64,000 nt of DNA, taken from assembly GCF_965363235.1 (NCBI RefSeq), contig NC_134843.1, forward strand, positions 92,041,795-92,105,794, in the 5' to 3' direction. This document shows positions 3,627 through 41,440 of the stretch, piece by piece. This DNA comes from Mytilus galloprovincialis (Eukaryota > Mollusca > Bivalvia > Mytilida > Mytilidae). The notes beneath the pieces are model-generated. The model made no database searches and was not told the DNA's origin. It saw only the letters and a list, made by a program, of their open reading frames with translations. Position 1 is the stretch's first letter. Every line of letters begins with the position of its first letter. The translations under genes and the position numbers were made by a program.

Positions 3627-4013
3627 ATGAGGTTTATGTCCAGTAATATGTCGTCAGATTCAATTATACAAGGACAAATTCCTATCGTATGTCACCTTTG
3701 CGATCAATCGGGATCCATTAAATGGAAATGTTTGACCTGTGAACTACTAATGTGTGGTAAATGTCGCGATAACGTGCACTCCAGATTCAAAACAGCAGAG
3801 CCTCATGAAATAGTCGACATAAAAAATGTTGGTTTGCCTAAAAAAAGGAGATCATTTAATTTGATTGCTAGATGTGAATTCCATAAAGGTTGGAAATGTT
3901 GCCTATATTGCACCGACTGTAGCGTTGCCGTTTGTCCTAATTGTATTGCTGGAAGACACAAAAAACATGACATGATAAATTTCGCTGAGTTCGTCAATGA
4001 TGTAGAAAACGAC
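3627..4013 (+). CDS. Exon 1: double B-box zinc finger
   Basis: This exon codes for 129 residues and ends at a GTATGT donor in phase 0. B-box 1 ligands are C22, C25, C35, C38, C43, C46, H51 and H60. B-box 2 ligands are C83, H86, C95, C98, C103, C106, H111 and H114, the usual spacing of TRIM proteins. Bivalve genomes carry many B-box proteins that continue into a coiled coil and NHL repeats; here the frame stops at 4037 if read through, so splicing onward is expected. Alternative reading: a truncated B-box exon of a separate gene. Confidence 0.85.
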
Positions 4014-7000
4014 GTATGTAATCATAATGTTTGTTAGTGTGCTTTCAATTTTTATCTTTACGTTTTGGTAATTTTATTATTGTTATCCTAAATAATGTGT
4101 CTATACTTTATTTTTGTTGTTAACCTAGAAAACACATAATGTTTACTGGCAAAACTTTGTTGTTCAATGGCATTGGCCATGCTTCCATTCGGGAGCTAGT
4201 CAATTTGTACTTGCCAAACCGATCTCTCTGGTCAAGCTCTTCACAACTACTTACCGTTCCAAAGTTGCGGACGGAGATGTACGGCGAAAGACGATGTGAA
4301 TGAACAGCAGCATCTTTTTGGAACAAGTTTGAGACCATGCAAGTTCCTAAGCTTAAAACACATTTTTGAATCTCAGCTTAAAACTCGTTTTTGAATCTCA
4401 ACGTTAACCTCATTTTTATTGCATTGCTTTTTAATCAGATTGATTTGTTTTCTTTTACGGGTTTTTATTATTGTGCATCTACTTTAAATGCATTTTTGTA
4501 TTCTTTCTTAAGTTTTTGTTTTTGTTTTGTATGATTTGAGCCTCAAATGTTAATTGTTAATACTTTGTTTTGATATTTATTTTAATATCGTTCTTTTTAA
4601 TGGTAGGCATTTTTTTGTAATTTTATTTCAGTATTTTAATCTGACATAGTTTGTTTTTGCACTTCAGTGTTCTGTTGTTTTGTTGTTTTCCTCCATTAGT
4701 TGATGTTTTCCCTCGGTTTTAGTTTCTAACCCGGAATTTTTTTCTCTCAATCCGTTTATGACTTTTGAACAGCGGTATACTACTGTTGCCTTTATTTATA
4801 GTGTATGTTTTAAATTTATGTTTATGTCTTTGTCTTTGATTTGTTTTAATTACATTTCTGCATGCACAACGCATTGGAGTAATTTCTATTTTTTATATCA
4901 GGCGCTTTATAAATTTTCATTATTATAATTTTCAATATTATTGTTATGAAATATTTTTGCACAACAGGAGGCCTAAGTTTCATAATTTCTGATTATTAGC
5001 TTAATAGAACAAAAGTTACAATTATTATAATAATTAAATTTATGTTTTTGCTATGGCTTGACATGACCAGTTTTTCAAGGACACATATTGCATATAATAA
5101 TTTATGCAAAAGATTTGTTTTGATAGTAATACAAGAACGGCCTTTCTTAGATTCAATATGATTTACTGTCGTTCACGATACATTCAAAAAATATGCAATA
5201 GAACAGAATGTTAAGGCAATGCCTTTTCTAAAAGGGTATCATTCACACAAAGAAATACAAGCTAAATGCATACAGGCACAGTTCATAAAACAACAGACAA
5301 AATCTAATGTTATGATTAAACCACGGAAAACAACATGTTCTTAGCTTGGTACAGATATTTTCCGAAAAATAAATTTGGATTTAACTGGTTTTATAGTTAG
5401 CAAAACCTCCCACTGGCATTGCGGTTGTTTAAAATTATACCGACAAAATTGGGTTGGCAACCTAATAAAACCTAATAGGCTAATGCGACAATGTTTATAT
5501 AACAATAAACACAACTGACTAAAAGGTTCAAACTAAAAATAGAAATTAATGTGTCAAAGACGCCAGCAAAAAGGTGTAGAAGTTGATAGTGAACTAGACA
5601 AATACTCCAGCAAAAGAGTTTTGTAGTTCATAGTAAATTGACAAAGACGCTAAAACATTTTTTGTAGTTTTTATGCCGTATAAAGTATACACTTTCGCAG
5701 TAAAGTAAACATTAAAGTAAAATTTTAAAACAAGGGTTAACAAAATGGATATCAAATACAAGTTCAACTCAGATCGCTGTCTGCACAAAGCGACTTTAAA
5801 AAAAGTTCTGTAAAAAGTAAAAACACAAAAATACTGAACTCCGAGGAAAATTCAAAAAGGAAAATCAAAAGGCAAAATCAAAAGTCCAAACACATCAAAC
5901 GAATGGATAACAACTGTCATATTCCTGACTTGGTACAGGCATTTTCTAATGTAGAAAATGGTGGATTGAACCTGGTTTTATAGCTAGCTAAACCTCTCAC
6001 TTGTATGACAGTCGCATCAAATTCCATTACATTGTCAACGATGCATGAACAAAACAAACATACTCAAAGAGTAAAAATGTCAAAAATAGGGGTACAACAG
6101 TCAATATTGTGTTATCATCTTAATATCACTACATAAACAACAAATGTAACAAAGTAGCACAAAAAGGCATACATCAAATTTAATATTCTCATTTTGCTTT
6201 TCTTATACGGCTGAATTTATCTATGTAAAGTCTACCCATAAATGAAAGAAGGTTTTCATTACTGGTGTAAAATTGCGCGTTTGAAATTCGCACAGGTAGA
6301 CATAAAAATAATTTTGTCGTATGACGGCATACATAAATGCAGACTCACGTAAAGTAGATATAACAAAAAGCAGACTTACAGTAAAAATAATAAATAAAAT
6401 AATGGTGTGGTTCAAAGCATGACGGGACACATAAGTACAGTTTCACGTCAAATACGGCTGAATTTATCTATGTAAAGTCTACCCATAAATGATAGAAGGT
6501 TTTCATTACTGGTGTAAAATTGCGCGTTTGAAATTCGCACAGGTAGACATAAAAATAATTTTGTCGTATGACGGCATACATAAATGCAGACTCACGTAAA
6601 GTAGATATAACAAAAACCAGATTTAACAGTAAAAGTAATAATAATAAATAAAATAATGGTGTTGTTCAAAGTATGACGGGATACATAAGTAAAAGAGAAG
6701 AGTGAAAAACTAGTAATTTTGTAAATATTTCTTTGTTTGTAGTCCAGTAGTGATGACTCTATGAATAGGATAGATTTAAGCTCGGATTTTGAACAACCAG
6801 AGGATTCAAAGGGTAAGTACTTGCCAAATGTAATGCCATATCGGCAAATAAATGCATTGCAAATGGGGGAGCTTCAATAAATGCAAAGTGTTTTTTTTTA
6901 TTGTTACGGTACTGACACAATTTATTCGTTCGAGGCATATAGATTTTTAAAATATGCCACACAGCTTTAAGGTTGGACCTGAAATGCAACAGGAGTGCAC

Positions 7001-10000
7001 ATCAACTTGCCATTGGTATATATAATTTTTTTTCACAAAACTTCATAGTAAAAGTAGCGCTAACTAAGCCATAAAAGGAGTCATATGGGACATTGCATTG
7101 TCTATTAGAACAGAAATGCAATCTTTGATATCTTAGTTATGTTTTTTTTTTTGTTGTCTTAAAATTCGAAGTGTGGTTGTTCCTAATTTAAAAATGGTAT
7201 AGGCCACGCATGACGAAGTTAATTTGGCAAGTGAATTGAAACGATTTTGTTTCACTAAAAAACAAACTTGGTTTTGCCGTTATCTGATTGGTCTATCTTC
7301 TTTTCGAGCTAATACAAAATTATAACGACATCGAAAATCGGTTGTAATTCAGCTCTCAAAACGAAATTTTTAAAAATTATGCAGTCCCTTTCTTGATTTA
7401 CCTTCATCAGGAATGTTCATGCTCGCTGGAAGCCAAGGATTAAAACTTCCTAAACCTGTGATATGATACAAAAATTAAACAAACTATCTGATTTCAATTG
7501 GTTGAGTGAGTTGGAACCTTAGCTGTTTTTTATGCCCCACCTGCTATAGTAGAGGGCATTATGTTTTCTGGTCTGTGTGTCCGTTCTTCTGTTCGTCCGT
7601 CTGTCCTGCTTCAGGTTAAAGTTTTTGGTCGAGGTAGTTTTTCATGAAGTTGAGGTCCAATCAACTTGAAACTTATTACACATGTTCCTTATGATATGTG
7701 TTTTCTAATTTCAATGTCAAATTAAGAGTTCTTATCCATTTTTCACGGTCTACTGAACACAGAAAAGGATATTGTGGATGAGGCATCCGTGTACGAGGGA
7801 CACATTCTTGTTTAAAATGTTTAACATTACCGTATCTGTTTTTATTAGAATATCTTAGTTTTATTTCATTTTCATTCTTTTTATACAAATATTTCGTCTG
7901 CTTTTTCTATTTCAGATTTGATATCTCCAACATTTAATACCCTGGACTATGTAGAAAAGACAGCAAACTTTTGGTTTATGCCAGATATAAATAAAACCGA
8001 AGGTTCTATATATTATGTTTTTCTGAGTTATTTGAACACTTTTTTTCACTTTCAATCAACATTAATTGCAATTACCGTAATATTGGTTATACAAAATGTC
8101 TGAACAGTTTTGCCTTAAAATACTCTGACAATTACAGGCTTAACCGGTAACAGATGTACAAAATGTTAAGTTAAATTTGCCTCTTGTTTACTTGTCGGAT
8201 GTCTTTATATAGATGTGATACCGTGTGGATAGAATCATTTCCAATTATTGAAGAATAAGATACACTATTTATTTAGATTTATTGTCAAAACGTAAAATTA
8301 ACAGTCATTTTACCATCAATGCATTACATTACAGAATTTATAAAAAGTAATGTTTTTGAAAACGAAAACTAATCTGCTCAACATCGCAAATTTATAATTC
8401 CACTTCTTAAAATATATCTAATACATTGTTTCGTTGATAAGTATACAACAAAAGACCACGTGATTTGAATTAACTAACTGAGGCATTCTTATTACAGATC
8501 TCACGGTATCCTTTATATCAAATGATATAATAAACGGGACGACCGATTTCATTAGATCTATATAAATTGGAAAACAAACACATTATAAAGTTACGTCAGG
8601 AGCGCTTTCTCCTAAATAGGATTTTATTTCGACTTCTTCTCACGGAGTTTGCAATTTTTAGCTTGTTAATTATCTTTTTTTAATGTCTGTCATATCCTTA
8701 TCATTGAAAATTCTCAATCAGGTCACCATCTATCCGGATATAAAGATATTTTGAAGGTATCGTCTTTTGATAAAGGCAATGTATGGTGCAATTTAATTTA
8801 AAGCTATTTATACAAAAACCAAAGTAAATTGACTACCCCTTTCAAAACTCCATTATATGTACAAGATCTGTTTGGAAACCACTGTAGCGAACCCCCATGT
8901 ACCAATACAAACTTACAACTTTCATGTAGAATATTGTCAGTTACAACCTTTTCAAACCCATTGGAAAATATAAAAAGGAGAAAAGATCATTTATAAAACT
9001 TATCTTTAGCAGCAAAGGTTTCGATGCCATCAACTTTGGAAATACTCTTGTCATGAAAGAAGGTTAAACATGCCAAAGGGACATTTAATTTGATTTCTTT
9101 AAATGTTTAAATGTTTTTAAATTTATAAAAGTAAACCAATAAATGTCAAAATACAGTCTTTAACAGACTGCATTGGCTCACACCGAACAGCAAGCTATAA
9201 AGCACCCCAAAAGTTACTAGTGTAAAACCATTCATACGGGAAAACCAACGGTCTAATCTATATAAAAATCGAGAAACGAGAAACACGTATATACCACATC
9301 AACAAACAACAACTACTGAGCATTAGAGTACTGACTTATGACAGGTGAAAACAATTGCAGCGGGTTTTAACGTTTAAATGGTACAAAACTTTCACCCTTA
9401 TCTGAAACAATAGTGTAACATCACAACACAGAAAGACACACTATAGAATATCAATTGAAATGACTGAACATAATAAAAAGACATAACTACATTATCACTG
9501 GTGGCTAAAATATTGGCATAGCAGTTCTTCAATCCCATTAACATCACAATGTAGTTAGAACTATTTTAATGCTATTTCAGCTCTGCTTACGCTTAAAGCC
9601 ACCACACCTGGAACATTTTTGATAAGGAAGTCAAAAACCAAAGTTGATTGTTTTGCTCTCGTTTTGCGGACAGAATACGACCCAGTGTACGATAACCCAA
9701 CAGAAATTTCTTTGGAAGATTGTGTCTCTACATATCGTATCGAGAAAACAACAGAAAACAAGTATCAATTCACTTTCACAGAGCAAATGTTTGGTAAGAT
9801 TTAACATTAAACAATTTAGCTAGATATATAAGATCAAACCGTTAATTCCAAATATGGAACGAAAGATATTTTGCATACACCTAATGTATATAGACTGTAA
9901 AAGTAAAATCACAAAAATACTGAACTCCGAGGAAAATTCGAAACGGAAGGTTCCTAATCAAATGGCAAAATCAAAGATAAAAACATCAGACCATGGATAA

Positions 10001-13000
10001 CAACTATCATATTCCTGACTTGTAACAGGCATTTTCTTATGTAAAAAAATGGTGAATTGAACCTGATTTTATAGCTAGCTAAACCTCTCACTTGTATGAC
10101 AGTCGTATCACATTCCATAATATTGACAACGATGCGTGAACAAAACAAACATATATATTAGGTAAAATGTCAAAAATAGGGGTTTAGCGGTCAATATTAT
10201 GTTGTGATCTTAACAAGTACAACAAGTATTTTAATCACAATAAAAACTAACAAATGAAGCACAAAAAAACATATAAAAAAATTTAACAACCTCATTCATT
10301 GCTTTCTTAATTTTTAACAGAGTCGTGCGTTTGACGTCAGAATGAAAACATCACTGTAGAGATATATAATAATTTTGTCGTTAAGAGATCGGCAAGGAAA
10401 AGCGCACAGTTCGTTCCCATAGAAATGCCGACAATTTGTTGAAAAAGTCTACCTTCAAATTAAACAAATATTTTGTTGATAAGAAACTCCAGCATACTGA
10501 TCACTTGTTCCTCTATGTTTTACCCTTTTGTACACTATTGAAAAAATATACCTTATGGTATCCCAAAGTAATAAAGTTATAACGTATGCTACCATTTTTA
10601 TGTTGAAAGGCATTATCAATTATTTCCCATTTCAAACTTTCAAACTATAGTAATATGATGAAGCAATGCATATTGTTTGCTTATTGGTATTTAAATCGAC
10701 ACAAGTATTTAGAGATATAACTAAATGGATAAAAATCCAAAATCGATCCCAATTTTATAGAAATGTACAATGCCTGATGTTAAATTTTAAGAATTCACTA
10801 TTTTCATGCTTTATTTCCGGGGTTTGTTTGTTGGTTTTTTTTGGTGCTTATCGGTTCGTTTCTTAAATGTTTTTCCATGCATAGTTTTTTATGTTCAATT
10901 TTAGCCATGTCTGCCATGTAGGTTGGCAGGTGGGGTCAGCGGACACATTTTTAAAACTAGATAGTCTAAAGCTAATTTTATCTGCTTGTGTAGTAAAGAG
11001 ACAATAATAATATATTGCACCAAAATTTATAAAGCTGATACCTTTCAGATTGAAAATTATATTCTATTTTATGGAAAGCTGGGAAGGAATTTTAATCCTT
11101 CAAGATAATTTCAAATCACTTCAGATTATTTGTAAGTTTCTATATTTTTTTCAAAATGTGAAACTGCTGACTCTTCCGGGCCAATTGTGTTTATTGTTCA
11201 GTAATTAATTCAATATTGCTTTTCTATTCTTTTCTTTTCCTTTTGCTTAATGTGTTGTGTTTTTTATTCGACATATGGATAGGTTTTGTTTACCCATTTG
11301 ATATCCATTCTCTTATTCTCATTTCGAATCCATTCTCTTATGCATGTTCTAAAAAGAAAATTATTAACTGTATACTCGTTGATTTATATAAGAAATAAAA
11401 CATGCTCCAGATAGCCTTATTATTAATGTATTGAAGAAATTACCAGCAATCTACAAGTTATCAATCAAACACCAAATAATCGAAGAGGAATTGTGAATAC
11501 CTAAGCAAACCGAAATAAACGAAAAATGTTCAAACGTTTCAGAGAAAACAAACTAAAACCTACTTGATACCACCAATTAAATCTGGGTATTTATTAATGA
11601 TACTAATTATGATATCTAATCTGATATCAGGTACCTGCTTACATTCCGTTTGTTGAAATAATTGAAATTGCTTTTTCTTATTAACTGGTCAAAGGTTAAG
11701 TTGCACTTTTCGTCTAATGTTAAGTTACAATTTTCGTCTACTATATAGACAAATATCTATGATCTGACTAGAAGTCTATTTATGAAGTACTTCATCAATA
11801 GTTACTAATTGAAGATCTTAACAGAATCCTTCTACAACAATGTTTTAAATATATATTTTAGACACCCTCGGATCACTGGTATTCAATCACACAGAAGCAC
11901 AAGGCATACTGCCATGTAAATTAAATATTCCAACAACTGGTAAGAAACACGTATCTTATAAATTGTATAGCCTTAGCCTGTAAACGCAATATTTCTACGA
12001 CAAGCGTCACTATTAGCAAATTTATCAATAAAAATACTAATGTAAACAGTGTTATCAAGTTGACAAGGTTTTGATAACGAATATCAGAACATATCCGTTG
12101 TAATCTGTAAATTAGATATTCCAAAATGATAACCAAACTTATTTTACAATGAATATACTTACGACGCTGTTGTCAAGTCAATAAAGTTGGCATTTTTTTT
12201 AATTAATGATTCACTCATATGGTCTTTGAATTGGAAATAAAAGTACTAAATCCATCTCAAGGTCAACTTTGCCTGAGTGAGAATGAGTGAACACATTTGT
12301 TTCTTTATAAATTTCAAAACTATAAACGGACTTTAGAAATGTTAGTTTAAGATCGTGTCAGTATCGAACTACTAACTGCTGAGTAGATACCCTTGGGGAC
12401 TGATAAATCACCAGTAGAGGTAACGACCTAGTGGTGTAAATAAAGGGAAAACAACACTTTATAAATGTCATGAGTCTGAAACGCTATTCTGGATTGACTA
12501 AAGTTTTTTTTAATCATATCATAACCTTAATACAAAGGAGAGTTGGACAGATTACAGGTATTCTAAAACATACTCTATCTTAAATGATATACGGGTATAT
12601 TTGGAAATCCAAGTTAAAAATTCAAAGTGACATCACAAAATTACTGTGTGACTTATCACTTGATTTGTACTTTAATGAACAACAGAACGCAGTGCTACTT
12701 GTGAAACAAGATCTGCTAACACATTCGGATAACAAGAGATCCCACTCGGTTTTTTGGTGGTGCTCGTATTGCTTTGTATGTTAACTTTGGCTAGTTTTGG
12801 TGTTTTTTTCGGGTATTTTGTTGGCATGGCCATGTAAATTTGTTTTCGACTTATAACTTTGCTGATCCCTTTGGAATATTCCGGGGTGTTTTACAGAGAT
12901 TCTATATAGTTGTTTTGTGCATGTTAAACAATATTATTTGATTCTTTGTTTGCTGAACAACAATATGTGTATGGTGAACAGAAGATGAGATATTTACAAT

Positions 13001-15910
13001 CTCAGGCTTCTTGAATAAGTTAGACTGTTTGACTGATAACAACTGCCATATTTCTGATTTGGTATTTGACATTTTGAGAAAAATAAAGATTCTTGAACCC
13101 GGTTTTATGGCAAGCCAAATGTCCCGCTTATATGGCGATGTTGAAAATATCCCTAAAATGGCAACAGTACGTGATAGGAATACAGTACAAATACATGCAA
13201 GAACTGTCAGGACAGAAAAATATATTAATGAATAATATAAAAGTACATAACAACATGAAGACCATAGAATAACAACGGACACTTCCTCTGAATCTACTAC
13301 AGAACAGTTGATTTTGGTAGTGTTTGTATATTTTTAATGCAATTATTGGTTATTGCGCGTTTTACAACATTTTCATTTCATCATTGTTAGTGTATGATAT
13401 TAGAGTAAACGAAATAAACTCATCAAAATCGATAAACTCTATGTATATTAAATACCATCTGATTACGGTGAAATTACAAATGATAGTTTCACTGTTTGTT
13501 CTCATAAAATTAAAGTGCAATATTTAAATATAGTCCAAAATCTGGTTTTGGCTTTGAATCCATATTATAAGAGAATATCCTTAGGGAGTTGTATATAAAA
13601 TCCCAAAGTATAGTTATTTTCATACATGTATTTTACATTTTAGATTTGAGACTTGGAGTAAATTTGAGTATTGAATCTTTGCAAGCAATAAAGCAGTATT
13701 GGTACTTCCCTGATATTTCCAGAGACGAAGGTTTGACACTAACATTACATTTGAAGCATTGTCTTTATCTATTTGGATCAACAAGTTTTACCACACCAAT
13801 AAATGAATTTAGATTGTATTTTCGTTCCAGTTTGATGTTTTAATTTGATGCCTTTCTTCTAAACCAACCATATTATTAATATTGGTTATATTCCTATCTT
13901 TCTTTGTACTTGTTTCTTCTGTTTACGTTTTTTTTTTTCACCTTCCTATTTCCATGCGAAACTCCGTCTTAAGTCTGCTTTCTATAAAATGATATCAAAT
14001 TGTAAACCAATATCGTGTTTATTCTATCTTTAAGTATTTTATTTGTAAAAAAAATATTTCAAACATATTTGTCGAATTATTTGAGAGATACCTTAAATGG
14101 AAATAAAATAGATATATATATATATATATATATATATATCAAAAGACAAACAATGAATAAGTAACACGGACATTTTTTTATATCATTTATAGATAAGTCT
14201 TTTTAAAGTCTTTTTATTTTTATATTGCATTAGGAATTTGGGATTTTTTTTAAATACAATTGTATTACCTCGACTATCTTTAAAATATACAGTAAATGTA
14301 ATTTTTTGTTCCTTATTTTATATATTTGCTTTCATACTCATATCTCTGTTATTTCATTTCTTCTAGCAATTGGAAAAATAAAACTCAAAGTTGTAGGATC
14401 ATTTTTGATAAGAAAATCATCCAGTGAAGAAGGAGGGTTTGTTTTAGTTGTGAATGAAACCAAAACAGATAATCTGTGCAACAGCAACAATAATACTGTT
14501 GTTAGAAATTTTTTGATTCATTCAACAGATAGAGGATTAACTTCGATACAAGGCACAGAAACATTTGGTGAGTAGTTAAAATCCGTTATCATAACAAGCA
14601 ATTATTTAATCACCAGCAAGGAATTTTTATTTTAATATCACTTCGGTTTTATCATGTATATCTATTGTATAGTCATTTTATAAAATTTACTGTTTGCAAA
14701 AGTATGAATTATTCTAAATAATAAAGATGTTCTTATCCCAGGCAGAAAACCTTAGCCGTATTTGGCACAACTTCTTCGAACTTATGGTCCTCAGTGCTCT
14801 TCAACTTTGTACATTTTTTGGCTTTCTAACTTTTTTCACATGAGCGTCACTGGTTAGTCATGTGTGGACAAAACCCACGTCTGGCGTATCAAATTTTAAA
14901 CTTGGTACCTTCTGTTAGCTATTATCCGTGTGTTTCTCTGTTCTAATGTTCTCCCTTTTATTTGTATTATAGTCCTGTCATGTAATGTTGTCATTTTAAT
15001 GTTATATTTAACATTGCCATAAAACGGTCAGCTTTGGCATGCCACAAAACCAGGTCCAACCCACCATTTGTTTTTCTTAAAATGTCCTGTACCAAGTCAG
15101 GAAAATGGCCATTTTTATATTATAGTTCGTTTCTGTGTGTGTTACATTTTAATGTTGTGTTTCTGTTGTGTCGTTGTTCTCCCGTTATATATTTGATGCG
15201 TTTCCCTCAGTTTTAGTTTGTAACTCGGATTTGGGTTTTTTTTCCTCAATCGATTTATGAGTTTAGAACAGCGGTATACTACTGTTGCCTTTATTAAATA
15301 TTATCCTTAAATTGTTGTTATATGTGTAATAATGAAAAAGATATCCTACCTTCAAATAAAAAGTTGAATTAAATTTCTGACTCACGTTTTTTTATGTGAA
15401 AATGATCTATTTACGATTATTTGCCGGAAGTCAATAGCAAATATGTTGTGCATTTTCAAGTAAAGAAAACGTTAACAATAATCTCAATTGGACGGTTTAC
15501 AGATGAAAGGCCAGTAATACGAATATAAGATATGATAATGTGTGATAGGATAAATATTGTGCAACATACTGACCCACCAAGGCGTATTACTATCCTTACA
15601 CAACATACAGCCAAGAGACGACTCTTGATAAAGAGGTTTTAACTCCGGGACGGAGGTCTAGGTGAAGATATATGTAAGTGTCGGAGTGTCCTTCAAAATG
15701 TACTATGCAAATGTTTTAAGTATCAGGTCTGCCTAAAAATTTAGTTTATAGTAAGAAGCATATCAACAAAACTCAGATAAGAAAATGATAAAATGTACAT
15801 AAAAATAAATAAGTGTTGTCTTATCTTTTTCAGACAGCATTGTTTCATTAGTTCACTATTATGCTACGACTGATACAACAGACTTGTCGTGTAGACTAGC
15901 CTTACCTTAA
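3627..15910 (+). CDS. B-box / tandem SH2 domain protein, 8 exons
   Basis: Reconstructed exons are 3627-4013, 6743-6812, 7916-8002, 9581-9793, 11862-11939, 13644-13730, 14367-14567 and 15834-15910 (TAA). Every junction has GT/AG and matching phase (0, then phase 1 throughout), giving 1200 nt or 399 residues. Residues 22-60 and 83-114 are two B-box zinc fingers, 130-152 an acidic Ser/Asp-rich linker, about 172-275 SH2 domain 1 and about 298-398 SH2 domain 2. Both SH2 domains keep the FLIRKS form of the FLVRES motif, with the phosphotyrosine-binding arginine at 197 and 323. An in-frame TGA directly before the ATG fixes the start within this exon. There is no RING, coiled coil, NHL repeat or kinase domain. 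SH2 domains bind phosphotyrosine peptides and B-boxes bind zinc and mediate protein contacts; an adaptor role is inference. I know no named family with this order. Transcript support is needed for the joins. Confidence 0.75.
4130..4950 (+). mobile_element. 3' fragment of a CR1/L2-like LINE
   Basis: Within intron 1 of the B-box/SH2 gene the plus strand reads LVNLYLPNRSLWSSSSQLLT, a tyrosine-glycine-basic YGERR segment and FWNKF, the typical C-terminal tail of L2/CR1 reverse-transcriptase proteins. A 3' UTR follows, with the common LINE ending GGCGCTTTATAAATTTTCAT and an ATTATT tail near 4945. It is 5' truncated and decayed. Confidence 0.5.
5808..6080 (+). repeat. SINE-like repeat B
   Basis: Shares ACTGAACTCCGAGGAAAATT, TGTCATATTCCTGACTTG and GGTTTTATAGCTAGCTAAAC with 9896-10185, and more distantly with 5340-5480, 13025-13215 and (inverted) 4655-4800 and 15010-15295. 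No coding frame. Confidence 0.6.
6205..6698. repeat. 247-bp direct duplication
   Basis: ATACGGCTGAATTTATCTAT begins at 6205 and again at 6452; the two copies are nearly identical through ATGACGGGA.ACATAAGTA. It lies in intron 1, just before exon 2 of the B-box/SH2 gene. Confidence 0.75.
6743..6812 (+). CDS. Exon 2: acidic linker
   Basis: A 70-nt exon lies between a pyrimidine-rich AG and a perfect GTAAGT donor. In the phase set by exon 1 it reads 23 open codons rich in Ser, Asp and Glu, then passes phase 1 to exon 3. It resembles a flexible linker and is not a known domain. It is short, so the call rests on the splice signals and phase agreement on both sides. Confidence 0.6.
7530..7812 (+). 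repeat. Interspersed repeat, TATGCCCCACC family
   Basis: TATGCCCCACCTGC...GGTCGAGGTAGTTTTTCATG...GAGGCATCCGTGTAC is shared, inverted, with 43078-43345. It holds the simple tract TCCGTTCTTCTGTTCGTCCG. Intron 2 of the B-box/SH2 gene. Confidence 0.6.
7916..9793 (+). CDS. Exons 3-4: SH2 domain 1, first two thirds
   Basis: Exon 3 (7916-8002) gives the start of the domain, with the motif WFMPDINKTE corresponding to the SH2 strand A / helix A start. Exon 4 (9581-9793) continues with GTFLIRKS and the strand C/D region. Both exons begin after a good AG and keep phase 1. The donor of exon 3 (GAAG then GTTCTA) is weak, but the paralogous exon 6 has the same GAAG/GTT junction, which supports both. The usual strand D histidine is replaced by Thr (VSTYRI). 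An insert carries two tyrosines in an Asp/Pro setting (YDPVYDNP). Confidence 0.75.
9105..9445 (+). repeat. SINE-like repeat A, uninterrupted copy
   Basis: Contains AGCAAGCTATAAAGCACC, ACTAGTGTAAAACCATTC and AATCTATATAAAAATCGAGA. It is the uninterrupted relative of the copy split at 58862/60639. Intron 3 of the B-box/SH2 gene. Confidence 0.6.
9896..10185 (+). repeat. SINE-like repeat B, second copy
   Basis: Close match to 5808-6080 over its length (AGTAAAATCACAAAAATACT through ATGTCAAAAATAGGGG). It starts about 100 bp after exon 4 of the B-box/SH2 gene. Confidence 0.6.
10900..11010 (+). repeat. Old fragment of the composite repeat
   Basis: TTTTAGCCATGTCTGCCATG, then GTTGGCAGGTGGGGTCAGCG and GACACATTTTTAAAACTAGA match the unit segment with GGCGGCCATCTTGG in the composite copies, with many differences. 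It lies in an intron of the B-box/SH2 gene. Confidence 0.5.
11862..11939 (+). CDS. Exon 5: SH2 domain 1, C-terminal helix
   Basis: A 78-nt exon sits between a TTTTAG acceptor and a GTAAGA donor. It reads DTLGSLVFNHTEAQGILPCK and onward, matching the SH2 C-terminal part (SL..LV..H...ADGL...L). It joins exon 4 and exon 6 in phase 1. It lies 2.07 kb downstream of exon 4. Confidence 0.75.
13644..14567 (+). CDS. Exons 6-7: SH2 domain 2, first two thirds
   Basis: Exon 6 (13644-13730, 87 nt, the same length as exon 3) carries YWYFPDISRDE, including the helix A arginine that is absent from domain 1. Exon 7 (14367-14567) carries GSFLIRKS with the binding arginine, then VVRNFLIHSTD, where Asn takes the place of the usual strand D histidine, and TETF. 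Acceptors are TTTTAG and TTCTAG; donors are GTTTGA (weak) and GTGAGT (good). All junctions are phase 1. Confidence 0.8.
14108..14139. repeat. (AT)n microsatellite
   Basis: About 30 bp of uninterrupted AT dinucleotides in intron 6 of the B-box/SH2 gene. Confidence 0.9.
14735..14930 (+). mobile_element. Hammerhead-bearing repeat, decayed copy
   Basis: Shares GCCGTATTTGGCACAACTT, the GAGCGTCACTG entry and GGTACCTTCTGTTAGCTATT with the unit at 17529. The ribozyme core is mutated at several positions (CTGGTTA in place of CTGATGA, AAAA in place of GAAA). It lies between exons 7 and 8 of the B-box/SH2 gene. Confidence 0.6.
15010..15295 (-). repeat. SINE-like repeat B, inverted copy
   Basis: CATGCCACAAAACCAGGTCC, CCTGTACCAAGTCAGGAAAA and GTTTTAGTTTGTAACTCGGA are the reverse of repeat B; it ends AGCGGTATACTACTGTTGCC. 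Intron 7 of the B-box/SH2 gene. Confidence 0.55.
15834..15910 (+). CDS. Exon 8: SH2 domain 2 C-terminus and stop
   Basis: After a TTTTTCAG acceptor the exon reads DSIVSLVHYYATTDTTDLSC, then ends ALP and TAA at 15908-15910. It is the direct counterpart of exon 5 and completes the second SH2 domain, so the protein would end with the domain. AATAAA signals occur downstream (near 16160 and 16814), but none can be assigned with confidence. Confidence 0.75.
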
Positions 15911-25638: not shown

Positions 25639-28280
25639 CTATATATAGAAAATAAACATGGTGAAGAAATAATAATTAAATTAAAAACATATTGACAGAG
25701 AGTTTACGATGTTATTGTCAAATAATGATGACTATGTTAAATATCAAATTGTTATTGAAATGTTGAGAGGATATCGATTGGTTTGAAATTTTTTGCACTT
25801 TTTATCATGTTAAGATACTGGTAATTAAGCTCGTCTAATGTAAATAGATAAAGTAATACATACATGTATACATGTATTCAATTTATCTTATGTCAATTTT
25901 AGGTCACTCATTTGTTGGTGCATAAGTATTAGGGTGTTTAACAAAAAGGGTTATTAAGTGGAAACTTTTGTCCTACATTATAACTTAAAATTAAAATGAC
26001 TAAGATGTGGTCTTACTAAAATTTAAAGTTTTAAATATATCACATACTGAAATTCAATAATTTATTGCAATTTTATGAATTTAGGCCAAATAAATAATAC
26101 ATGTGTTTCCACTAACCCTACCTTTATTCAGTCTATTTTAATTTTAAGTTATAATGTAGGACTTAATAACCCTTTTTGTTCAATACCATAATACTTAGGT
26201 ACCAACAAATGATTGACCTAAACATTGACACAAGAGGTCTTTGCTCATGTGCTAATTTCTCAAATATTACAAAATTACAAAAACCATTCTCATAGAGACC
26301 TAAAAACAATGAAAACAATGGTTCCACAGCTGTCATGATTGTATATATGTAGTTACAGTACCGAAATCATATTTCTGTTAAATAAGTTGCAACATTTGTA
26401 TTTCTTTCTGTCCATTCAGAGTAAGACTCGGCATGCTCAGGAATTAGAGGTTGACATTTTGTTTAGACATCTGCCTATAGTTGTAGACTGTTGCCCTGAA
26501 GTTGTCTTTTGGTTGCTTGTCTCATCAACGTATACCCAACATCTCCTTTTATTCATATAAGAGAAATCTATTTATAAAACCAATCACCTATATATATAAG
26601 CTATAATAAGCTATATTAGATCGTTCTTATATTGTACTGTTAAACCACTGTCCCAGATTAGAGGAGGGTTGGGATCCAGCTCCGCCACATTATTTATGTA
26701 TATGCCTGTCCCAAGTCAGGAGTCTGTAATTCAGTGGTTGTCAGTTTTTTATGTGTTACATATTTGTTTTTCGTTCATTTTTTTATACAAATAAGGCCGT
26801 TAGTTTTCTTGTTTGAATTGTTTTACATTGTCATATTGGGGCCTTTTATAGCTGACTATGTGGTATGGGCTTTGCTCATTGTTGAAGGCTGTATGTACAT
26901 GACGTATATGGTGACCTATAGTTGTTAATGTCTGTGTCATTGTGGACAGTTGTCTCGTTGGCAATCATACCACATCTTCTTTTTTTATATATACATTGTA
27001 CATACATACCACTATTACAGAGCCTGCTGTTGTGTTATACAGGACTGGATTAGGACTCTCTACAGCTGTAGATATAATATACCCAGCTATGGCAGTTCCT
27101 AGGAATGTTAAAAACGATATCACAATGCTTGATTTTACTGTAACAAAAAATGCCACCAAACAGGCAAGAGGATTGGCAATGTTTGCCAAAGTGGCAGACA
27201 AATGATAAGCATCATTCCCAAAAGGCAAGGTTGAGTATGTCTGTAGAGATGGCAGTGCTCCATTTGAAAGACAGTTTACCCATGCAGTTAAGACTAAATA
27301 ATATATAAATAGCTTTGTTGACAATATTTCACGGAATTGAATTATATCTACTGATTTTGAATTTATATCTAATTGCTTGTTCTTCTTCATCAGCTGATTT
27401 CTTGAACTTAATGCTGAAGGATTTATAAATTCATTTGAATGATTTCCAGAGTTTTGAGCTGATATACTATAAGGTTGATCTGGGTTCAGTTCATAACTAC
27501 TCATCATTTGATTATCATTGCTTGACTCTACTTCTTCATAGTCATCTTGATGTTTGACTTTCTCCTTCTTACAGTATGACGTGTAATTCAGAATGGTGAA
27601 CGACACAATGGAAATGATTAACATTGCACATAGAAAATAAAAGAATTCCTCTACACTAAAACGAATGCTATGATAAATAGGCTGTATACTATAACTCGTC
27701 ACATTTGTCGTGGAATTAAAGCTAGATATATTTTTACACGTAAGTTGACCAACTCCTTGACCAAGAGCTACAACACTTGGAACAAGTCCACTCAGTCCTT
27801 CACCAATGAAATAACCTGTCATGTATTCAGCTTTAAATGTCGCCATGAAAGGTAAAAATAAAACAGATGTTGTACAATCTGTAAGAGCTAGGAAAAACTG
27901 AAGAACTAATAATGCTGTGCTGTGAAAATCTCCAGCGATGTATGTTGTTTCCTTCCAGAAAAACGACATAAGTAAACACGAGGTTGCTCCGATGCCCAAG
28001 ACAGCATAAACTGCAACTCTCTCTTTCATATAACTTTTACAAAACACATACATTGCCGTTACCAAGAGTGGTCCAATGTTAGCCATTTGTATAATGACGG
28101 ACAAATATGAAGGTAATTTCCATCCCTCTGGGAGGTGTGGCACCATCACTGGAAGTTCTACCCATAATCCATTTATATCTACCCAGGATCCAATACCAAA
28201 CAGGGCTACTAGAACATAAACTAGGATATTTATGTTTTTGCACTGAAATATATCCACTGCCATGTTGCATCAAATTTCAC
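25438..28280 (-). CDS. SLC52A: Riboflavin transporter, SLC52 family
   Basis: There are two coding exons. Exon 1 (28263-27010, 418 codons) begins at ATG and ends at a GTATGT donor in phase 0. Exon 2 (25638-25438) begins after TATATAG in phase 0 and ends in TAA, giving a 484-residue protein. The N-terminus GSWVDINGLWVELPVMVPHL and the segment FLPFMATF...YFIGEGLSGLVPS are hallmarks of RFVT/SLC52 carriers, which move riboflavin across the plasma membrane. About eleven hydrophobic segments are visible. An extracellular-type loop has N-glycosylation sequons (NIS, NST, NVT), and a long polar loop rich in Asn/Ser follows. A CAG acceptor at 28281-28283 just before the ATG shows that the 5' UTR continues in an upstream exon to the right, so promoter and first exon are not identified. 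Length is slightly above the vertebrate members (about 450-470). Confidence 0.9.
25891..26230. mobile_element. MITE with 110-bp inverted repeats in the SLC52 intron
   Basis: The left arm, TGTCAATTTTAGGTCA... through TTAACAAAAAGGGTTATTAA to ATAACTTAAAATTAAAAT, matches the right arm in reverse over about 110 bp, ending TGACCTAAACATTGACA. The central 110 bp is unique. The target duplication is unclear. Confidence 0.65.
26600..26985 (-). repeat. SINE-like repeat A, full copy in the SLC52 intron
   Basis: On the minus strand it starts at GATGTGGTATGATTGCCAAC and runs through TAAAAGGCCCCAATATGACA to CCTCCTCTAATCTGGGACAG. It ends about 24 bp from the donor of SLC52 exon 1. Confidence 0.6.
27010..28263 (-). 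CDS. SLC52A: SLC52 coding exon 1
   Basis: This exon codes for residues 1-418, including the conserved N-terminal motif, six or more membrane segments, the glycosylation loop and the polar central loop. The ATG is the first in the exon, 17 nt after the acceptor. The donor is GTATGT. A SINE-like repeat tail begins only about 25 nt into the intron. Confidence 0.9.
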
Positions 28281-38420: not shown

Positions 38421-41400
38421 TTTCTTCTTCTTCTTTCAGGTAAGGAACCGAATTCAAATCTTGAATGTATGAGGTCCCGCGAAAACTAACGCAATGTCGG
38501 ACAACACAGAAAGTTTTCTCTTGGCTATTTACAGGATAAAACGTTCTCTATATATATACAAATAAAACTATTTACAGGATGTTACTGTCTAAATTTTAAC
38601 AGAGCATGCCTTCAGGGCAGCTCTGAATCCATCAACTGTGTCAGCTGATGTTGCGGATGTTGGCAGTTGGTTCCAGTCTCTAATGGTCCTTGGAAAAAAT
38701 GATTGTCCGAAGGCGTCTGTTGTGGCCCTTTCTTGGAAGAAGCGGTTTTTACCTCTGGTCCGGCTATCGTTTGGCGTTAGATATTGGTGCCTATCTATGT
38801 CTATCAGATCATGTTTGATTTTGAATAGCATGCATAGCCTATTTTGTTTCCTGCGGTCTTCAAGGCTTTCCCATTTCAAAGATGTTACCATTTTTGTTAC
38901 ACAGCCAGGTGTGCGGTCTGTGTAGTTGTTGTTAACAAATCTAGCTGCTCTTTTCTGTACCTGCTCGATTGCTTTTATTTTAGCCTGTTTCGTAGGATCC
39001 CATACTGTGCTAGCATACTCAACTGAAGGTCTTACTATTGTTGAATATGCTGCTGCTTTGACCGGTTTAGTGCAATCTTTTAGGTTACGTCGTATGAAGC
39101 CTAGTGTTTTGTTTCCTTTTCCCACTATGTTGTCGATGTGTCTGTCCCAGGTTAGATTATTGCTGATAGTAACTCCCAGGTATTTACTAGCTTCAACGGT
39201 GTCCAGTGTGTGTCCGTGTAATTTGTAATTAGTTGGTATTACAGGACGGTTCTTGGGTTGTATTCTAATTACAATGCATTTTTTTGCATTGAAGCTCATT
39301 TGCCACTTATCTTCCCAATCCTCTAATGATGTGAGATCTTTTTGTAGTAGGTCACTTTCTGCTTGGTTACTGATGGTTCGATAGAGGAGGCTGTCGTCTG
39401 CAAAAAGTTTGGTCTCTGATGATGTTGCTGTTTCTGGCATGTCGTTTATGTAGGCCAGGAACAGTAGGGGTCCAAGGACTGTTCCTTGAGGAACACCAGA
39501 GAGTACTGGTACTTGTTCAGAGACAGCTCCTTCTAGAATAACGCTTTGCATTCTGTTTTGTAGGAATGATCTTATCCACCTGTTTGCTTTAGGATTTACT
39601 CCGTAGTACTCAAGTTTATGTAGTAGGCGATGGTGTGGCACTTTATCAAACGCTTTAGCAAAATCTAGTAGTATGATATCTACCTGGCTGTTACCTTTTA
39701 ATTTCGATGCAATATCATGAATGGTGATGAGTTGGGATTCGCAAGATCGTCGTTTGCGGAATCCATGCTGTGCATTTGTGAGGATTTTGTATTTGTCGAA
39801 ATGGTCCATTACGCTGCTGTGTACAATGTGTTCTAGGACTTTGCATGTAATGGAGGTAAGTGATACAGGCCTGTAATTTGATGCCAAGTGTCTTTCATCC
39901 TTTTTGAAGAGTGGGACTACATTTGCATCTTTCCAATCTTGAGGGACTTCTCCGGTGTTGAGGGATGCTTGGTACAGTTTTGTAAGAATTGGAGCAAGTT
40001 GGTCTGCTGCTGTCTTTAGTATACAGGATGGTATAGCATCTGGTCCAGTAGCCTTATGTGGTTTCAGGTTCTTCAATAATTTATGAACTCCTTTTACATT
40101 GATTTGTATGTCAGCCATGGTGGTATATGGACTTTTCCCTTTATTTGGGAAGTTGTTCAGGTTCTCTTTTGTAAATACGGACTGGAATTGGTCGTTAAGG
40201 ATATTAGCTTTGCTTTTGTTGTCGCTTTGGAGGAATCCCATTTTGTTCTTCAATGGTGCTACTCCTGTCCATTCCTGACCTTTGCTTTTAATATAGGACC
40301 AGAATTTCTTGGAGTTGTCCTTGTAGTTGGAGCTGACTTCTTCCATGTATTTCTTATTGGCTTGTCGTATTTCCCATTGTACTTCTTGTCGTAGTCTCTT
40401 GTATCTGTCTTGGTCTCTTTTCTTTTTGGTTTTCCTAGCTTTCTTGTGCGCTTTTTGTTTTTGGTTGATTTTGCGTCTTATTGCTGTGTTCATCCATGGG
40501 TGGGTGTGTCTACCTTGAGTCATTTTTGTTGGTACTCGCTTCTCAATGGTTTTTTGAATTTCTGATTTGAAGCTTTGCCACATGGATTCTACAGTTCTGT
40601 TGCAGGTGTTTTTAAAGGATGTCTTGAATGTTTCGAGGTCTTCCTTTATCTTATATATATCTGCTTTTTTCCACAGGTATATCTTTCTTTTAACTGGTTT
40701 GGGTTTTAAAGGTTTACATGCTATATCAAGTAAGACGATGTCATGGTCGCTGTTTCCTATTGATGGTAATGGTTTACATCTTAGTTTGAATGATGGATGA
40801 GAGGTAAGTATTAAATCCAAGGTGTTTTCTTTACGTGTTGGGAAATCTACGATTTGTTCTAAACCATTATCAGCTACGGTGTCTAAAAAAGCTTGACTGG
40901 TTCTTGTGGGGTACTGTCTATGTGTGATGGTCTGTTCTTGCCAATTTATATCTGGTAGGTTGAAGTCACCTCCAATCAAGAAGATGTTTTTTTGATGTTT
41001 TGATTTGATGGTACTTATTTCCTCTTTAACTGTATTAAGGTAGGTGTCATCCGTTTTATCTGGAGGGCGATAAAATGCACCAATAAGCATTTTCTTTTTT
41101 CCTTCTAAGGCGATTGTACCAGTTAATAGTTCTATCTCACCGCTTTTTGTTATGTTCCCTAGTTGTAATGTTTGTTTGTCTGCTATCAAATCTCCCCCAT
41201 GTGGGTCTTTGGGACGATCCCTTCGTTCAATATCATATTTAAGGTAATCAGGAAAAATTTCACTTGATTTAATGTTTGGATCTAGCCATGTTTCTGTGCC
41301 TATTATTATGTCCGGATCAGTTGACTCTATAATTGCCTCCAGAAGTTTACCCTTTTTTCTTAGACTCTGGAAGTTGATGTTCAGCAGTCTTAGTTGTTTC

Positions 41401-41440
41401 TTAGGGGTTGGTTTCGTTTTGATGAAAGCTTGTCAGATTT
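38421..41440 (-). mobile_element. CR1-like LINE with open endonuclease/RT frame
   Basis: The minus strand is open from 41432 to the TAG at 38589, about 947 codons. From the N-terminus it has the endonuclease motif GTETW (metal-binding Glu), GDFNLPDINW and SDHD, then reverse transcriptase motifs RPVSLTS, FRKRRSCESQL, LLDFAKAFDKVPH, SGVPQGTVLGPLLF and the catalytic FADDS, then the usual C-terminal tail. All catalytic residues I can name are present and there is no frame break. There is no in-frame ATG near the start and an in-frame TGA lies at 41435-41433, so the copy is probably 5' truncated. The 3' part has a short GAA run near 38421-38440 that may be the end. It resembles CR1/L2-type LINEs; the clade is tentative. 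Confidence 0.85.

Follow-up and report, generated by a model that had tools for sequence, protein, structure and literature searches.

A duplicated B-box/tandem-SH2 gene, most likely an old chimera, in the mussel Mytilus galloprovincialis

The window analyzed here, a stretch of 64,000 nucleotides of the Mytilus galloprovincialis genome (C6:92041795-92105794; assembly of 1.385 Gb in 331 contigs), contains an eight-exon gene on the plus strand (3627-15910 of the window) with a predicted product of 399 residues. The order of the product is B-box1, B-box2, a short acidic linker, SH2-1, SH2-2 and stop. Judged from its sequence and from two neighboring copies, this gene is most likely an old, duplicated chimera.

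The gene model has GT-AG at every exon border, a phase 0 first intron and phase 1 introns 2–7, and its frame is open as far as the TAA. Exon 1 (3627-4013, 129 codons, ending in phase 0) carries the ATG, which is immediately preceded by an in-frame TGA in all three copies, and encodes B-box1 (C22-H60) and B-box2 (C83-H114), each with a complete eight-ligand Cys/His zinc pattern. By the ligand patterns that we take to define the two B-box types, a type-1 pattern (22-60) precedes a type-2 pattern (83-114). Exon 2 (6743-6812) encodes the Ser/Asp-rich acidic linker and ends in phase 1; it is also found in the neighboring copies A (3 nt shorter) and B. Each SH2 domain is spread over three exons with a similar layout (87/213/78 nt and 87/201/77 nt). 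SH2-1 opens in exon 3 (7916-8002, FWFMPDINKTE), has its core with FLIRKS (R197) in exon 4 (9581-9793) and closes in exon 5 (11862-11939) with ILPCKLNIP, a tensin-like ending. SH2-2 opens in exon 6 (13644-13730, YWYFPDISRDE), has its core with FLIRKS (R323) in exon 7 (14367-14567) and closes in exon 8 (15834-15910) with LSCRLALP and the TAA; copy B has its stop at the equivalent place. Exons 3 and 6 have weak donors (GTTCTA and GTTTGA), yet these are identical across the three copies. In a Pfam search, the product matched zf-B_box (E 2.9e-10) and SH2 (E 6e-27) above the curated cut-offs, each in two stretches, while one B-box-like model and DUF3284 matched below the cut-off. The original prediction, that two B-boxes are joined in matching splice phases to a linker and two SH2 domains with intact FLIRKS arginines, is borne out by the model and by Pfam, and the two junctions it proposed (4013/6743 and 6812/7916) are exact in the model. 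The neighboring copies, the tensin resemblance of the SH2 domains and the relation of the B-box head to an uninterrupted B-box/NHL-like family go beyond that prediction.

The same unit recurs nearby. A genome search with exon 1 returned three close relatives (84, 81 and 78% identity, with the next at 51% among the 150 matches listed), all on C6, 61–92 kb upstream of the window exon 1. The SH2 query gave 17 matches in the genome, of which 16 lie in this region of C6; the B-box and SH2 matches listed genome-wide fall on contigs C1-C14 only. An exon-by-exon search of the contiguous 120 kb identified two further units with the same order and orientation. Copy B (C6:91980620-91999383), 46–65 kb upstream of the window exon 1, has all eight exons at equal lengths, with 7/7 GT donors and 7/7 AG acceptors. 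Copy A (C6:91953211-91960676) has six of the eight exons, with 6/6 donors and 5/5 acceptors among the exons present; exons 7 and 8 were not found in the 120 kb. The window copy (copy C) and copy B are 84% identical in exon 1 and 76–92% identical across exons, compared with 47–69% in introns 2–7. The intron alignment starts at intron 2; intron 1 differs in size, with 2.7 kb in C against 9.7 kb in B. Copies A and B share a second AG 12 nt 5' of exon 2, likewise in frame. Since exon order, phases and splice sites are the same in two tandem copies, the arrangement is more than chance, and the proposed fusion of a B-box pair to two SH2 domains gains support from a gene structure conserved in three copies.

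Both neighbors are damaged in this assembly. Exon 1 of copy A is split by a 538-nt insert, followed by a frame break. The insert (C6:91953499-91954036, L039) has inverted ends of ∼30 nt and a flanking repeat of ∼10 nt, by eye, and resembles a non-autonomous DNA transposon. In copy B, exon 7 is interrupted by an in-frame stop, and there is an additional, incomplete exon 1. The latter (C6:91984625-91984879, L042), a partial second B-box exon of 85 residues with an intact donor, sits between exons 1 and 2 of copy B; it is possibly an exon duplication or an alternative exon. The window copy is the sole intact unit found.

The alternative to a fusion is the joint duplication of two adjacent genes, a short B-box gene (136 residues) and a tandem-SH2 gene, with splice borders that match by coincidence. 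In C and A, exon 1 read through its donor does stop at the eighth codon, as would suit a separate B-box gene. In B the read-through is frame-shifted and longer, yet the GTATGT donor is kept there, as it is in the other two copies and in the extra partial exon 1 of B. That partial exon also indicates that exon 1 can be duplicated apart from the SH2 exons, which favors separate genes, and so does an in-frame Met in exon 3 that is common to the three copies. However, this Met, the sole in-frame ATG shared by the three copies in exons 2–3, belongs to the SH2-1 motif FWFMPD, and translation begun at it would lose the conserved Trp of SH2-1; a truncated SH2-only start at this position is conceivable. 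Exon 2 contains an in-frame ATG in C, which is absent from A and B. Both C and B have in-frame stops within the 90 nt preceding exon 2, a stretch that is open in A. Thus, an SH2-only gene would lack a good common start. The phases of exons 1 and 2, moreover, match in all three copies. Two separate genes appear very unlikely on these grounds, and we consider the B-box/SH2 unit to be, with high probability, a single chimeric gene that formed before the local duplication.

We also compared 54 SH2 matches with B-box match lists (150 of 3307 and 150 of 1229) for other fusion loci. Among these listed matches, B-box and SH2 lie within ∼50 kb of each other, by eye, only in the C6 cluster and in one pair on C12. 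The C12 pair, in which the intervening stretch is partly N, was rejected as a second fusion: its SH2 precedes the B-box frame, which has its own ATG.

Selection on the single gene was assessed with pairwise dN/dS estimates by approximate counting, with one-sided Fisher P-values. Between C and B, dN/dS is 0.38 for the whole protein (p 2.4e-8), 0.19 for exon 1 with the B-boxes (p 6.8e-8), 0.44 for both SH2 domains together (p 3.1e-4) and 0.32 for SH2-2 (p 3.5e-4). SH2-1 alone (0.62, p 0.10, not significant) and exons 2–3, the linker plus exon 3 (0.65), show no clear constraint. The corresponding values for exons 3–6 and for the first 96 codons are 0.36 and 0.22 between C and A, and 0.23 and 0.42 between A and B. 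The dS between C and B is ∼0.3, and the fusion would predate the split between A/B and C. The interruptions in copies A and B may mean that the family is in decay. The gene could be real but a dying, unexpressed relic in this lineage, the open frame in the window being transient, a reading compatible with a single gene. It draws on the two of three copies that are broken in this assembly and on hemizygous (presence/absence) variation, which is reported in M. galloprovincialis (PMC11183127). The window copy, however, is intact across eight exons, and the ratios for exon 1 (0.19) and for the whole (0.38) would agree with both branches having been constrained through much of the period after duplication. 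A relic is, in our estimate, rather improbable.

The B-box head can be traced within the same genome. Exon 1 corresponds to the N-terminal part, both B-boxes included, of a large B-box family, with ∼50% identity over residues 4-115 to one member, L021; many frames of this family, among the matches listed, are stop-free over ∼550–600 residues. L021 itself, the one frame scanned, is uninterrupted over 559 residues; its NHL match is sub-threshold and it has no RING. A second frame (L022) resembles it by eye. Such RING-less B-box/NHL-like frames presumably resemble TRIM2/3. The N-terminus and both B-boxes of L021 are shared with the window protein, which runs into the SH2 domains where L021 continues for ∼440 further residues. 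The splice donor of exon 1 is located 15 residues past the last B-box2 ligand, just ahead of the long middle region of L021. No remnant of the NHL-like tail was detected by tblastn with this one relative in the window and in the 120 kb around the copies.

The description of this head as TRIM-like holds in part: it has ∼50% identity to a RING-less B-box/NHL-like frame, but no RING was detected and there is no room for a coiled coil. A RING is absent from the 399-residue product by Pfam, and an upstream exon spliced inside exon 1 is conceivable. The 56 residues between His114 and the start of the SH2-1 motif at 171, partly acidic and Ser-rich, do not accommodate a TRIM coiled coil. The B-box2 of TRIM/RBCC proteins is present (zf-B_box, two stretches); by Pfam, no known TRIM C-terminal domain follows the B-boxes, only SH2. 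By its predicted domains, the protein is not a TRIM.

Several lines of evidence relate the two SH2 domains to tensin. Each is 34–35% identical to the SH2 of a tensin-like gene of the same genome (C14:3.15 Mb), compared with 29% between SH2-1 and SH2-2, and the positions and phase of both internal SH2 introns are those of that gene. The C14 gene is called tensin-like from its SH2 alone, which has 60% identity to tensin2 over 78 residues. Among known structures, the nearest match of SH2-1 is tensin2 (tensin-like C1 domain-containing phosphatase, PDB code 2kno, E 1.2e-9). SHP2 is the top PDB match for the SH2 pair and the best whole-chain match for SH2-2 (7.5e-10), and it leads for SH2-2 because its two SH2 domains sum; the best single stretch for SH2-2 is from tensin2 (35.6 bits, E 6.8e-8) compared to 25.2 bits for SHP2. 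From these best matches and the intron positions and phase, both SH2 domains are classified as tensin-type. A parental tandem-SH2 gene was not found elsewhere in the genome, the sole match outside C6 (1/17) being on C9 with 31% identity (E 0.14).

Within this tensin-like gene, the first exon of the SH2 is repeated (L051:2500-2925, minus strand), occurring three times at a spacing of ∼79 nt, with a fourth, decayed copy ∼220 nt further on; the SH2 used for the comparison includes one of these repeats. They are possibly alternative exons or decaying duplicates.

The window protein shares with tensin the SH2 type, the intron positions and phase and, in SH2-1, an ending of the LPCkL type. However, tensin has one SH2 domain, whereas the window protein has two, with B-boxes in front, and lacks the PTB, PTP/C2 and C1 domains (Pfam). 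No PTB was found by Pfam after SH2-2, where the stop codon follows immediately. Without a PTB, the predicted product is not a tensin.

The tandem-SH2 signaling proteins SHP2, p85, SYK and ZAP70 (for ZAP70, PMC8152464) resemble the window protein in having a pair of neighboring SH2 domains that keep the FLxR arginine. Unlike them, the window protein is devoid of catalytic domains, whether phosphatase, kinase or other. A functional analogy is offered by c-Cbl and Hakai, which combine a phosphotyrosine-binding module with a RING-related zinc module (PMC3507883). These two proteins carry a RING, whereas the window protein carries B-boxes; strong ligase activity would not be expected of it.

In bivalves, newly formed domain combinations are not uncommon, and TRIM genes are known to acquire C-terminal domains, as in TRIM5-CypA. 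TRIM genes with such additions keep their RING and coiled coil; the window protein, in contrast, keeps the B-boxes alone. PMC2533329 mentions a case from New World monkeys in which, likewise, a TRIM head came to carry a binding domain of other origin. The same survey ties TRIM B-boxes to a small set of partner domains, and the word SH2 occurs 0 times in its main text. In a study of animal-specific domain combinations (PMC2394772), SH2 has 19 partners and zf-B_box has 8, with the pairs unnamed in its accessible text; a B-box/SH2 pair may be among them. No described B-box/SH2 family was found in the literature searched, which consisted mostly of non-subscription sources. The components are ordinary, and their pairing appears to be undescribed in this partial literature.

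In the favored reading of its origin, the first exon of a RING-less B-box protein became spliced onto a gene with two tensin-like SH2 modules. As no enzyme domain was found, the protein would most likely act as an adaptor, or else as a competitive decoy. In a possible scheme, the B-box pair would fold compactly around zinc and bind either itself or TRIM/B-box partners. The tandem SH2 domains would dock on a doubly phosphorylated, or tensin-ligand-like, tail of a receptor or adaptor. Activated tyrosine-kinase complexes could in this way receive a B-box assembly and, possibly, a ubiquitin ligase that a partner contributes. The tandem B-boxes of MID1 form a unit similar to a RING dimer and the RING-less TRIM16 has weak ligase activity (PMC6468550), which leaves room for weak activity in the window protein or for recruitment of a ligase partner. 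Tandem SH2 domains of the ZAP70 type read double tyrosine motifs (PMC8152464).

Whether the SH2 pair reads phosphotyrosine bears directly on this scheme. Retention of both FLIRKS arginines makes the phosphotyrosine signaling role put forward in the original prediction plausible. On the other hand, both domains are tensin-like, and the histidine usual in the phosphotyrosine pocket is apparently replaced, by eye, with Thr in SH2-1 (STYRI) and Asn in SH2-2 (RNFLI), at a position that we assume to be betaD4. The SH2 domains of tensin and SAP also bind unphosphorylated ligands (PMC3507883) and that of tensin2 binds PIP3 (PMC8152464). The pair could thus be mainly phosphorylation-independent or lipid-binding, and the protein, still from a single gene, a cytoskeletal or adhesion scaffold and not a phosphotyrosine reader. 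Against this, the FLIRKS arginine is kept in both SH2 domains of C and B and in the sole remaining SH2 core of A. We regard such a scaffold as somewhat unlikely. An adaptor that links B-box assembly to tyrosine-phosphorylated or tensin-ligand-like partners is a better candidate, which falls a little short of an even chance.

For a role in innate immunity, also raised at the outset, PMC8382680 includes, among bivalve expansions, a B-box orthogroup annotated with interferon-beta production; such a role is only a suggestion. The most far-reaching reading, at somewhat less than even odds, is a protein family of the mussel lineage whose TRIM-type B-box head came to be joined to tandem tensin-type SH2 domains when a donor arose behind B-box2. 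Its members would be RING-less adaptors that directly link tyrosine-kinase receptors to B-box assemblies, perhaps in immune cells.

The duplicated gene indicates that a B-box head can be joined to SH2 modules and be constrained for some time, and it provides a test case for exon capture out of a highly amplified B-box family. It also supplies a concrete protein for asking if B-boxes alone bring ubiquitin or immune machinery to tyrosine-kinase complexes.

Elsewhere in the window, the minus strand contains a reading frame for an SLC52 riboflavin transporter (26971-28269, Pfam E 5.4e-137) and a stop-free endonuclease/reverse-transcriptase frame of 946 residues (38595-41432), which is probably a LINE-type element.
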